A DNA stretch of 64,000 bases from Hymenobacter sp. YIM 151858-1 (GTDB taxonomy: Bacteria; Bacteroidota; Bacteroidia; Cytophagales; Hymenobacteraceae): NCBI RefSeq assembly GCF_025979705.1, contig NZ_CP110136.1, positions 2,232,001-2,296,000 on the forward strand, read 5' to 3'. Each line of letters begins with the position of its first letter. Position 1 is the first letter of the stretch. A program made the position numbers and the translations under genes. The notes below the pieces were generated by a model. That model was not told the DNA's origin, ran no database searches, and saw only the letters and a list, made by a program, of their open reading frames with translations. This document shows, piece after piece, positions 10,065 to 53,924 of the stretch.

Positions 10065-10148
10065 TGTCATGTCGAGCTAGGCGAGACATCTGAGTCAGGC
10101 CGTTCGTGGTAGTTCCAACCCAGATGTCTCGCTGCGTTCGACATGACA
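10065..10148. repeat. GTCAT-type palindromic repeat, copy 1
   Basis: An 84-bp imperfect palindrome: arms 10065-10095 and 10118-10148 pair at 26 of 31 positions around a 22-base loop. It begins TGTCATGTCGAGC and ends with the near-complement GTTCGACATGACA. It sits between the fabI promoter and the stop of the GIY-YIG gene. The loop sequence is related to that of the second copy at 10471, so the two are homologous elements and not just similar hairpins. Confidence 0.85.
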
Positions 10149-10167
10149 GTTAGTACCCGCCCACATC

Positions 10168-10455
10168 CTAGTTCAGCGCCTTCCACTCGGGGTTGTGCGC
10201 CGCGATTAGTGCATCCTTCTTCGGGCGCCCCCAGCCCTTCAGCTCCTTCTCGCGCGCAATGGCCTGCTGAACACTGGCGTAATGCTCCCAGTGCACAAGC
10301 AGATGACACCAGTACCTTCCAGCGAATGTGTGTGGCTTTCCTGCATTCTCTAAGTGCTCGTCCAAACGCCGCACCATATCGTTGGTAACGCCGATGTAGA
10401 GCACGGTTTTCTTTGGGTTGGTAACGATATAGACGTAATAGTTGTGATATTTCAT
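10168..10455 (-). CDS. Small GIY-YIG nuclease-domain protein
   Basis: A 95-residue protein that is essentially one GIY-YIG domain (COG2827 type). It starts at MKYHNYYVYIV (ATG 10453-10455); an earlier in-frame ATG at 10474-10476 falls inside the flanking palindrome. The GIY-YIG pair reads YVYIVTNP then VLYIGVTNDM, followed by the conserved arginine in MVRRLDEH, glutamate in AREKELKGW and asparagine in AAHNPEW, so the nuclease site looks intact. Its stop is 20 bases from one palindrome and its start 16 bases from another. Family members are often labelled excinuclease-like, but they lack other UvrC domains. A role in DNA processing is inferred; a link to the flanking repeats is discussed as a finding. 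Confidence 0.88.
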   Translation of the reverse strand: MKYHNYYVYIVTNPKKTVLYIGVTNDMVRRLDEHLENAGKPHTFAGRYWCHLLVHWEHYASVQQAIAREKELKGWGRPKKDALIAAHNPEWKALN

Positions 10456-10470
10456 AGAGATAAGAACCTC

Positions 10471-10557
10471 TGTCATGTCGAGCGGCAGCGAAACATCTGG
10501 GGACGGACCGTCTGCTACGATTCTAACTCAGATGTCTCGCTGCCGCTCGACATGACA
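10471..10557. repeat. GTCAT-type palindromic repeat, copy 2
   Basis: An 87-bp palindrome with arms 10471-10501 and 10527-10557 pairing at 29 of 31 positions around a 25-base loop. It begins TGTCATGTCGAGCGGCAGCG. It lies between the start of the GIY-YIG gene and the end of recN. Confidence 0.88.
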
Positions 10558-18941: not shown

Positions 18942-20276
18942 ATGCTCGACCGCGTTCGTGAGTTCATTGCCGAAAACAACCTCTTCAACCCCGAAACCGA
19001 TCAGCTGCTGGTAGCCGTGAGCGGCGGCATGGACTCGGTGGTGCTGCTCGATGTGCTGCACCGCCTGGGCGTGGGCGTGGCGGTGGCGCATTGCCACTTC
19101 GGCCTGCGCGGCGAGGAGGCCGATGCCGACGAAGAGTTTGTGCGCAAGCTGGCCAAGAAGTACGAGGCGCCTTACTTCGCCGAGTTCTTCGACACGAAGG
19201 GTTTTGCCGCGCAAGAAGGCCTGTCAACCCAAATGGCGGCCCGCGTGCTGCGCTACCAGTGGTTCGAGCAGGTGCGCCGCACCCAGCAGCTCGGCTACAT
19301 TGCCACCGCCCACCACCGCCGCGACGCGGCCGAAACCATGCTGCTGAACCTTACGCACGGCACGGGTTTGCGCGGTTTGCACGGCATACCTGCCCGGCAA
19401 GGCAACGTGGTGCGCCCCCTGCTGGGCATCGGCAAAGAGGATATGTTCGACTACGTGGTGGATCGCCGCCTGGTGTGGCGCGAAGACTCCTCGAACGAAA
19501 GCACCGCCTACCAGCGCAACAAGCTGCGCCACGAGGTGCTGCCCACCCTACGCGAGCTAAACCCCAACCTCGACGAAACCCTGCAGCACACCGCCGAGCG
19601 CGTGCAGGGCGCCGAGCAGCTGGTGCAGCACATGGTGGAGCAGGCCACTCAGCAGGCCCGCCGCGACGAGAACGAGGCCGTGTACCTTAACATAGGCGTG
19701 CTGCAAGCCACGCCCGCCACCGCCGTGGTGCTGCAGGAAATGCTGCGGCCCTTTCATTTCTCGTGGCTGGTAGTCAAGGATATTGTGGCCTCGTTTCGGG
19801 CTACCTCGGGGCGGCAGTTCGAGTCGCCCACGCACTTGCTCGTCAAAGACCGCGACCAGCTCGTCATCACGCCCAAAAACCTAGGCGGCTTTGGCACTTT
19901 TCAGCTGCAGCAGGGCCAAACCGAGCTGGTGGCCGAAGGCCTGCGCCTGACGGTAACGGAGCGCCCCGCCGAGGGCTACAAAATCCCTAGGTCGCGCGAG
20001 GTGGCCGCCTTCGATGCCGACAAGCTGAAGTTTCCGCTCACGCTGCGCAAGTGGCGCGAGGGCGACTGGTTTATGCCCATCGGCCTGAAAGGCAAGAAGA
20101 AGCTCAGCGACTTCCTCATCGACGAAAAAGTACCCCTGAACCTGAAGCCGCAGGTGCCGCTGCTGGTTACGCCCGATGGCAAGGTAGCCTGGGTGGTGGG
20201 CCACCGGCCCGATGATCGGTTTAAGATTACCGAGGAGACGCAGCGGGTGCTGGAAGTGCGCTTGCAACGGAAGTAG
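18942..20276 (+). CDS. tilS: tRNA(Ile)-lysidine synthase
   Basis: It converts C34 of the CAU-anticodon isoleucine tRNA to lysidine, so that AUA is read correctly. The 444-residue protein has the PP-loop SGGMDSVVLLDVL near residue 27, VAHCHFGLRGEEADADEEFV, TAHHRRDAAETMLLNL and REDSSNESTAYQRNKLRHEV, all N-type ATPase/TilS signatures, then the C-terminal substrate-binding region with LRKWREGDWFMPIGLKGKKK. Two in-frame CCTAGG sites encode Leu-Gly and Pro-Arg. The stop codon TAG is also the first base triplet of a palindromic repeat. Confidence 0.95.
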   Translation: MLDRVREFIAENNLFNPETDQLLVAVSGGMDSVVLLDVLHRLGVGVAVAHCHFGLRGEEADADEEFVRKLAKKYEAPYFAEFFDTKGFAAQEGLSTQMAARVLRYQWFEQVRRTQQLGYIATAHHRRDAAETMLLNLTHGTGLRGLHGIPARQGNVVRPLLGIGKEDMFDYVVDRRLVWREDSSNESTAYQRNKLRHEVLPTLRELNPNLDETLQHTAERVQGAEQLVQHMVEQATQQARRDENEAVYLNIGVLQATPATAVVLQEMLRPFHFSWLVVKDIVASFRATSGRQFESPTHLLVKDRDQLVITPKNLGGFGTFQLQQGQTELVAEGLRLTVTERPAEGYKIPRSREVAAFDADKLKFPLTLRKWREGDWFMPIGLKGKKKLSDFLIDEKVPLNLKPQVPLLVTPDGKVAWVVGHRPDDRFKITEETQRVLEVRLQRK

Positions 20277-20400
20277 CGCGGACTTTGTAGTCCGCGTCCT
20301 CGGATAGTAACTTCTAATCGTTGACCTAGGCTCTACGAGGAGAATACTATCCGAGGACGCGGACTACAACCGCAGGAAGGCGTAGCCAAAGTCCGCGCTA
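20274..20400. repeat. TAGCGCGGACTTT bulged palindrome overlapping the tilS stop
   Basis: Outer arms 20274-20286 and 20388-20400 are exact complements, as are inner arms 20287-20309 and 20345-20367. The right side carries an extra 20 bases (20368-20387), so the structure is a 36-bp stem with a one-sided bulge. The loop contains a CCTAGG. It probably also ends tilS transcription. Confidence 0.85.
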
Positions 20401-20502
20401 CAGCGCAGCACATGGAAAATGCGCCTCGTTACCGCTACTTCGCCGCACTCTTTCTACATTGCAAGCGCGTAACCCCATCTTTCAATTCCCATTCCGTACC
20501 CC

Positions 20503-21510: not shown

Positions 21511-21647
21511 TGTCATTCCGAGCGAAGCGCGGAATCCGGGGAAATCAGCCATCTGATGCGCCTGAGTCAGCAGTGCCAGAATCGGGGCTCATGATGATTT
21601 CGAAAAGAGCAATACTCCCCTGATTCCGCGCTTCGCTCGCAATGACA
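21511..21647. repeat. GTCAT-type palindromic repeat (TGTCATTCCGAGC form)
   Basis: Arms 21511-21541 and 21617-21647 pair at 29 of 31 positions around a 75-base loop. The left arm reads TGTCATTCCGAGCGAAGCGC. The 31-bp arm length equals that of the copies at 10.1 and 10.5 kb. Confidence 0.85.
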
Positions 21648-42207: not shown

Positions 42208-42306
42208 CGTCATCCTGAGCAAAGCGTAGGGTCTTGTCAGGACGGAACGGGTTTGGTAAACACCGTTCCAGCGTGATAAGGTCCTTCGCTTGGCTCAGGA
42301 TGACGG
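42208..42306. repeat. GTCAT-type palindromic repeat (CCGTCATCCTGAGC form)
   Basis: Left arm from CCGTCATCCTGAGCAAAGCG and right arm to GGCTCAGGATGACGG pair imperfectly around a central loop. Its right arm shares GATAAGGTCCTTCGC with the 30.4 kb repeat. Confidence 0.8.
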
Positions 42307-53699: not shown

Positions 53700-53756
53700 C
53701 GGCAAGCGCAAGATTCTTGAAGCGCGTTTGGGTTTTGCCAGAACGACCCCTCGATC

Positions 53757-53828
53757 GTCATGCTGAGCCCAGTCGAAGCATCTCTACTGATAGCAGCCTT
53801 CTAGTATCATTGCTTCGCTAGCTCAACA
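53757..53828. repeat. Degenerate GTCAT-type palindrome in the glycan locus
   Basis: GTCATGCTGAGCCCAGTCGA on the left is an imperfect complement of the CTTCGCTAGCTCAACATG segment on the right (to about 53828). Mismatches are more frequent than in other copies, so it looks old. The surrounding 308-base divergent region (53653-53960) otherwise holds only two promoter boxes. Confidence 0.5.
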
Positions 53829-53924
53829 TGCCCCAATACCCAAACAGGCTCTTAGTTGCGAAAGCTAAACGGTCAGGCCTTTCTCAATTCGCCTGCCTTG
53901 CGGCGCTCAACAATAGGCCATAGC

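Follow-up and report, generated by a model that had tools for sequence, protein, structure and literature searches.

The 64,000-nucleotide stretch of Hymenobacter sp. YIM 151858-1 DNA analysed here (the window) contains an element that is probably one of the gene-bearing copies of a REP family tagged CGTC/TGTC, the dedicated enzyme of which would be, by the mechanism proposed below, a single-domain GIY-YIG nuclease. REPs are common and long-studied repeats of bacterial genomes, and the nuclease is best read, from sequence comparison, as the dedicated partner of the CGTC-type REPs and as the GIY-YIG counterpart of the REP/RAYT system. This reading is suggested by the conserved sequence of the nuclease, its place within the repeat, the match between nuclease clades and repeat stems, and the prediction of repeat load.

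The gene (95 aa) occupies positions 10168-10455 on the minus strand and, as an earlier note on this DNA had described, is boxed between two palindromes at 10065-10148 and 10471-10557. Each palindrome consists of two inverted TGTC-tagged REP-like hairpins with a constant outer tag, TGTC, and a stem starting with AT; the hairpins of the left palindrome lie at 10065-10089 on the plus strand and 10124-10148 on the minus strand, and the left-hand hairpin of the right palindrome is imperfect. The 31-bp arms given for both in the earlier note fit the left palindrome (31 nt, 84% complementary), whereas the arms of the right one measure 29 nt (97% complementary), and the loops, described as similar, are only loosely so by eye. 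The spacing is as close as reported, although the gaps are 19 bases past the stop codon and 15 bases ahead of the ATG instead of 20 and 16. The upstream ATG that had been placed within a palindrome is indeed found at 10476, in frame with the gene and inside the right palindrome, which gives a possible 7-codon N-terminal extension (10456-10476, minus strand; the 102-aa reading). When folded as DNA, the left and right palindromes have z values of -7.1 and -11.0, respectively, and 0 of 200 shuffles of each fold as well. The sequence TGTCATGTCGAGC, with at most two mismatches, has 7 matches in the window compared with 1.2 expected, and 0 of 100 shuffles reach 7. The other family members in the window are solitary, as had been claimed: one at 21511-21647 with the arms TGTCATTCCGAGCG and CGCTCGCAATGACA, mixed TCC/TGC stems and no GIY-YIG gene inside; a CGTC-tagged one of the CCT stem family (CGTCATCCTGAGC...GCTCAGGATGACG) at 42208-42305; and an imperfect CGTC-tagged one of the GCT stem family at 53756-53830. 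Apart from these, an inverted GTAG-tagged repeat pair (GTAGCGCGGACT...AGTCCGCG) of the same kind as the repeats around a Y1 gene of this genome (L028) is located at 20273-20401.

The assignment as a stand-alone GIY-YIG nuclease gene is based on Pfam, alignment, an AlphaFold2 model and purifying selection. The 102-aa reading matches the Pfam GIY-YIG family with 59.5 bits (cut-off 22.6), and the Pfam scan of the protein returned a weak T5orf172 match in addition and no Y1 match. The protein has the single-domain GIY-YIG motif with Arg30, Glu69, and Asn88, which are invariant across 22 aligned relatives and which we take to be the catalytic residues. The mean pLDDT of the model is 94.4, and its nearest solved fold is the UPF0213 protein BH0048 (PDB 1zg2, E 1.5e-4), followed by a weak match (E 0.01) to Slx1, a nuclease acting on branched DNA. 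By sequence, the nearest solved relatives are BH0048 and EF2693 (1ywl), both UPF0213 proteins listed as hypothetical; with a REP partner, a small nuclease of obscure role would gain a defined biological setting. The substitution pattern indicates that the gene is under purifying selection, with a pN of 0.09 against orthologues and a pS of 0.77-0.79 that is saturated; the dN/dS between L031 and L032 (H. edaphi) is 0.059. The gene is intergenic, between what look like an enoyl-reductase gene and recN, and does not lie in an intron, an intein, or a conserved gene.

The repeats resemble the CGTC REP superfamily named by Di Nocera et al. (2013; PMC3733652), which, according to the accessible excerpts of that paper, apparently has no dedicated transposase. 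Common to both are the tag CGTC/TGTC/CCTC, which is unpaired and next to the stem (TGTC in the window), a stem that starts with complementary AT (ATGTC/GACAT in the window), and the arrangement in inverted pairs. In the four families described in these excerpts, the stem is 8-9 bp, the loop is 4-5 nt, and the tail is CCA (PMC3733652), whereas the window hairpins have a 5-bp perfect stem, an 11-12 nt loop, and the tail CTG. Because stem, loop and tail differ in this way, the window repeats are classed on their sequence as CGTC-like and not as members of the four published families. RAYT is the enzyme associated with the GTAG REPs. The excerpts of the 2013 paper (PMC3733652) state that CGTC REPs occur in many alphaproteobacteria, that the CGTC-1 elements of Neisseriae are dRS3, and that CGTC REPs do not flank tyrosine transposase genes; the spread of the CGTC REPs is left open. 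A matched, conserved nuclease would offer a testable answer to how these REPs spread.

The Hymenobacter genome has eight GIY-YIG matches, of which three are longer proteins and five are small genes. Every one of the small genes is enclosed by inverted TGTC/CGTC-tagged repeats, with the stem types ATGTC (the window gene and L001), ATTGC (L002 and L003), and ATCCT (L006), and none of the three longer proteins has GTCATnnnGAG within 1.5 kb. In L001-L003, the tags mostly face outward and the gene is within the loop; two of the five small copies, L002 and L006, appear frame-shifted. The repeats populate the genome, with 75 sites for GTCATGTCGANC (4 for the reversed control), 269 for GTCATBYBGAGB (22 for the reversed control), and 38 for GTCATTGCGAG of the ATTGC (TGC) family (0 for the reversed control). 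As in REPtrons, one or a few enzyme genes are flanked by inverted REPs that populate the genome in many gene-less pairs; unlike in REPtrons, the window unit has neither an HUH Y1 transposase nor a GTAG tag, and a GIY-YIG nuclease and a CGTC/TGTC tag take their places. Most of the ATTGC sites pair up, and of 17 units of 169-455 bp that were read, two hold a GIY-YIG gene. Gene-bearing and gene-less units have common terminal repeats (35 arms of the 17 units), which by eye reach approximately 75-85 bp into the unit and end abruptly on the outside. Such terminal inverted repeats are also common to MITEs and their autonomous partners; unlike these pairs, the unit contains no DDE or Y1 transposase. 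Simple internal deletion of the gene was considered for the short loops and is not general in the TGC family, the loops of which hold other sequence. In the 15 gene-less ATTGC units (L009-L023), the loops often hold, by eye, terminator-like hairpins or nested GTAG-type repeats, and otherwise other sequence.

The association extends to the relatives of the gene. Scanning a genome collection, we took the best 80 of at least 569 confirmed relatives (at least 594 candidate stretches), by title all Bacteroidota, and searched their flanks for a strict motif (GTCAT-XYZ ... complement of XYZ-ATC, within 250 bp) that detects GTCAT-type tags only, so that its counts are lower bounds. The motif is present on both sides of 50 of the 80 genes and in 3 of 1481 control windows, and on at least one side of 67 of the 80 and in 77 of the 1481; the control windows come from the same loci, include coding sequence and, like all other controls at these loci (scores and ORFs), are unmatched for intergenic position. 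All 80 loci entered this count, with a nominal length given to interrupted frames. The excess of palindromes beside homologous genes that the earlier note had proposed to look for is therefore present. Homologues lacking palindromes, which would have spoken against it, are not the rule, although they exist: 13 of the 80 have no flanking repeat by the strict motif, and 7 of the 29 loci of the order sample described below have no recognised repeat. The left and right repeats have the same stem triplet in 44 of the 50 doubly flanked loci (shuffle mean, 14.3; maximum, 25), a match to which each genome's own repeat make-up contributes, because the shuffling was across genomes. A motif-free score of the inverted repeats between the flanks, calculated for 77 of the 80 loci (L040, L087, and L093 are too near a contig end), reaches 28 or more for 48 of the 77 (6 of 741 controls) and 60 or more for 22 of the 77 (0 of 741). 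Of the 188 remaining ORFs (120 aa or longer) that lie away from the GIY-YIG gene, 0 are flanked by repeats on both sides, and of the 142 in its vicinity, 6 are; other positions and other ORFs of these loci are rarely flanked in this double way, contrary to the equal frequency that had been named as a refutation.

A sample of 148 genomes of the order, 61 of them with a nuclease match at E 1e-8, gave 29 loci outside this genome, each the best match of a best-scoring genome. The strict motif lies on both sides of 13 of the 29 (6 of 212 controls) and on either side of 22 (40 of 212 controls, which is not negligible), and the inverted-repeat score is at least 30 for 16 (2 of 212 controls). Six of the seven misses have near-miss or variant tags such as TGTCCT (in one of these six the repeat is only partly aligned), and the seventh has an unrelated palindrome. 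Twenty distant GIY-YIG loci, hand-picked from the weaker matches of the sample, have the strict motif in no case; within one genome (G077), a close homologue (L144) is flanked and a distant one (L178) is not. The notion that any GIY-YIG gene in a gap would be flanked in this way is disfavoured by these loci, and the association is concentrated in one part of the GIY-YIG family. Its boundary is not sharp, because 6 of the 20 distant genes have inverted repeats of other kinds with a score of at least 30 (0 of 68 controls), two of them terminator-like, two starting with TGTCACCC, and two others. Inverted repeats of a variant or unrelated type (TGTCACCCTGAGC..., TAGCCACGCTGTAAGCG...), perhaps representing additional families of this kind, flank the GIY-YIG genes L181, L180, and L151.

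Over the 148 genomes, the repeat load, defined as the count of TGTCATNNNGAN{4,16}ATC minus that of a reversed control per Mb, was compared with the presence of the nuclease at a cut-off of E 1e-20, which we chose and which 44 genomes pass. The median excess per Mb is 6.24 with the nuclease and 0.98 without it, and an excess above 5 per Mb is observed in 24 of the 44 genomes with the nuclease and 7 of the 104 without (Mann-Whitney p 2.4e-7; within-family permutation p 0.0002). The direction is the same at a cut-off of E 1e-8 (within-family p 0.0012). The repeat load follows the nuclease, in a correlation that gives no direction. All but one (G148) of the 15 genomes richest in repeats have the nuclease; lower in the list, G036, G107, G053, and G014 are repeat-rich with no nuclease detected. 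For G148 and G036, enzyme loss, a missed variant or another driver is possible. Y1_Tnp, the RAYT-type family, is present in 107 of the 148 genomes and is related to the repeat excess without stratification (p 0.004) and shows no link to it within families (p 0.22). G077 is repeat-rich and has the nuclease and no Y1_Tnp match.

On a tree of the nucleases, the stem type changes 27 times, compared with a shuffled mean of 39.6 (0 of 200 shuffles as low); the tree was built by a quick method that leaves 36 of its 76 inner branches unresolved, and near relatives inflate the clustering. The tree contains 79 rows cut at 101 aa, 67 of them with a stem label, with three proteins of this genome added and four loci with frames shorter than 80 aa left out. 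By this measure, nuclease clades tend to match the repeat stem family. Pontibacter makes a stronger case for the matching of enzyme and stem than the clustering over the whole tree: one nuclease clade (L033, L035, L036, and L038) has ATTTC repeats, found downstream only, and a second (L041, L045, L050, L060, and L084) has ATCCT repeats, with CTT in L081; judged by accession prefix, P. amylolyticus (L033 and L084) and strain BT731 (L036 and L050) have one gene of each clade. In the Hymenobacter genome, the Y1 gene L028 (1321-2150) has a GTAGCGCGGACT...AGTCCGCG GTAG repeat pair on each side, and paired GTAG repeats on each side are the usual RAYT arrangement. Two of the other Y1 genes have no such hairpin, one has a single doubtful match, and none of the four Y1 genes has GTCATnnnGAG within 1.5 kb. 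Judging from these flanks, a GIY-YIG/CGTC and a Y1/GTAG system appear to exist side by side in this genome.

The association is present in Bacteroidota, Pseudomonadota, and one cyanobacterium. A protein search of a plasmid collection gave 31 records, of which 16 regions were analysed, most near-duplicates being skipped; a further search with 38 records left the set at the same 16 (Rhizobium, Shinella, Azospirillum, Neisseria, and others; one, Spirosoma, belongs to Bacteroidota). A generic [CT]GTC hairpin is found on both sides in 10 of the 16 regions and on one side in 2, compared with both sides in 14 of 464 controls, and inverted-repeat scores of 30 or more are reached in 13 of the 16 and 16 of the 464. 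Where annotation is available, the GIY-YIG gene likewise lies between genes. The four regions missed by the generic hairpin are those of Sinorhizobium sp. C101 and Rhizobium tumorigenes, which have CCTC-tagged CCTCATTCCTGTGC...GCACAGGAATCCAG or repeats close to it (R. tumorigenes on the downstream side alone), and those of Planktothrix and Spirosoma, in which the repeats on either side are of the TGTCAT type and have shorter stems. The stems at the plasmid loci mostly start with AT, and with GC or AC in Novosphingobium and Sphingobium. Besides the TGTC of the window, the tag is CGTC in L108 and L113 and CCTC in L125 and L127. CGTCATCCTCGGGCTTGACCCGAGGATCCA occurs among the flanking repeats of Shinella WSC3 and Neorhizobium and agrees with the 2013 description in its stem (9 bp), loop (5 nt), and CCA tail, and the flanks in Neisseria gonorrhoeae include CGTCATTCCCGC...GCGGGAAT; judged by sequence, the Neisseria repeats and several of those from alphaproteobacteria fit published CGTC families. 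A. lipoferum, S. meliloti, and Neisseria (dRS3) are CGTC hosts in the accessible excerpts of the 2013 survey (PMC3733652) and have GIY-YIG-adjacent repeats here.

The unit is present at some orthologous sites and absent from others. At the window site it is syntenic in three species, namely this genome, H. gummosus, and H. edaphi (L032), and recent mobility at this site is therefore not supported. In six other genomes of the genus, in which the flanking recN query has an identity of 84-94%, the unit is absent; by eye, five of the six have other CGTC-type palindromes and the closest one has a GTAG-type palindrome. The gap between the two neighbour genes, with a different palindrome in each of these six species (L112-L116 and L118), is a turnover hot spot. 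L001 and L108 have a common element up to the CGTC ends and no common flank (blastn, E 1e-10), and for this reason we regard them as one element that occupies different loci in the two species. The unit of Azospirillum lipoferum separates sufB from sufC, which are 617 bp apart; where it is missing, in A. ramasamyi (96.7% identity), A. oryzae, strain B510, and A. thermophilum, the distance between these genes is 55-129 bp, and no CGTC palindrome is seen by eye at the site in these four relatives. S. meliloti Ak57 (L121, 2119-2977) has tandem units, a full one beside one that is missing most of the nuclease gene, at a site where Sinorhizobium C101 has only short repeats. No clear target-site duplication was seen by eye at the window, Azospirillum, or S. 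meliloti sites, the intergenic flanks of which have diverged.

In the mechanism that we propose, two inverted REP hairpins would form a palindrome that is extruded as a cruciform or folded as single-stranded DNA. The nuclease would recognise the hairpin of its own family by the constant GTC tag and the family-specific stem and would cut at or near the tag, and the break would then be used to excise, insert or gene-convert the unit. Gene-less palindromes would spread as non-autonomous copies, and the gene would spread when it lies between the arms. DNA binding, cleavage, the position of the cut, the transfer step, and the mobilisation of the repeats by the nuclease are what we infer here, whereas the association, the selection, and the presence or absence of the unit at orthologous sites are observed. 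The chances seem to us about even that a lone GIY-YIG hairpin/cruciform nuclease drives the CGTC REP superfamily in Bacteroidota, Pseudomonadota, and Cyanobacteria with no HUH enzyme, DDE enzyme, recombinase, or reverse transcriptase. The parallel with REP/RAYT drawn in the earlier note, in which a GIY-YIG nuclease replaces the HUH enzyme, gains support from the flanking excess, the other phyla, and the genome-wide correlation, as well as from the co-clustering of stems and nucleases and the orthologous sites without the unit. On the other hand, the reading of the nuclease as the dedicated partner is weakened by the strict-motif misses, the order-sample controls, the repeat-rich genomes without the nuclease, the unstratified Y1_Tnp correlation, the synteny at the window site, the two apparently frame-shifted copies, the lack of a clear target-site duplication, and the other inverted repeats at 6 of the 20 distant genes.

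Its main rival, which we regard as unlikely but worth weighing, is that the palindromes spread by other means and that the nuclease only copies itself into existing ones, i.e., a free-standing GIY-YIG homing gene cuts empty palindromes and enters their loops by repair. GIY-YIG is a known homing-endonuclease fold (accessible text of PMC1564403), and the window nuclease has the catalytic fold and the selfish-looking distribution of such enzymes. The mostly outward tags with the gene in the loop, the numerical excess of gene-less palindromes (38 TGC-family sites, with a gene in 2 of the 17 units read), and the gene-less palindromes at the window site in six relatives fit this explanation as well. 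However, no intron, intein, or conserved target gene was seen and the flanks are multicopy inverted repeats, unlike the situation of homing endonucleases; moreover, the abundance of the repeats tracks the nuclease and each nuclease clade tends to be accompanied by a stem family of its own, a pattern suggestive of an enzyme that feeds its repeat family, and the Azospirillum insertion lies where the four relatives show, by eye, no CGTC palindrome.

A domesticated host function, in which the nuclease trims or resolves REP cruciforms without moving REPs and linkage keeps enzyme and site matched, would account for the strong purifying selection, the fold near Slx1, and the vertical retention at one site in three species, and yet we consider it improbable: the patchy presence (44 of 148 genomes), the apparently frame-shifted copies, and the loss or gain at orthologous sites look selfish. 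It is slightly harder still to believe that a RAYT (Y1) or another enzyme moves the REPs and that pairs of REP copies have trapped the small GIY-YIG genes as cargo. Y1 is widespread in the order (107 of 148 genomes) and the repeat excess is weakly higher with it (p 0.004, unstratified), but this association is absent within families (p 0.22), and G077 is repeat-rich without Y1; none of the four Y1 genes of this genome is near GTCATnnnGAG, L028 being flanked by GTAG repeats instead, and RAYT as the driver is disfavoured on these grounds. Nor would one expect a single gene family to be picked up as cargo repeatedly in several phyla, and the accessible excerpts of the 2013 survey (PMC3733652) report no CGTC-flanked tyrosine transposase gene. 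Chance is rejected by the shuffles and the position controls, and the accumulation of gene and repeats in the same intergenic gaps as insertion hot spots, which the other palindromes of six relatives at the window site and the controls unmatched for intergenic position might favour, is barely credible given the low same-locus controls, the 0 of 20 distant GIY-YIG genes with the strict motif (partly in the same genomes), the matching left and right stem types, and the genome-wide correlation with the nuclease.

If the nuclease is the dedicated partner of the CGTC-type REPs, REP spread would have arisen independently at least twice, by way of unrelated enzymes, and one genome would contain, side by side, two unrelated nuclease folds that serve selfish hairpins of one kind, each fold with a tag of its own. 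No link between a nuclease and CGTC REPs was found among the open-licence papers listed, subscription papers and preprints being outside that search. In the open literature, the matches to GTCATTGCGAG are unrelated by title, and others among those listed concern, by title, restriction enzymes, introns of fungal mitochondria, genome editing, phages, Tn7, and other nucleases; a matched Moraxella paper contributes, in its accessible part, a clade gene list only. The words "transposase", "nuclease", and "RAYT" are absent from the accessible main text of the 2025 RepRanger paper (PMC12306157), and "palindrom" is absent from the accessible text of the 2006 GIY-YIG survey (PMC1564403).

Two minor observations concern the surroundings of other GIY-YIG genes. 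On the Planktothrix plasmid p1 (L119), the neighbours of the gene are a type IIL restriction enzyme (MmeI) on one side and DISARM drmA on the other. In Photobacterium sp. GJ3 (L130), a cluster of CGTC/TGTC hairpins that recurs every ~270-360 bp is located downstream of the GIY-YIG gene.
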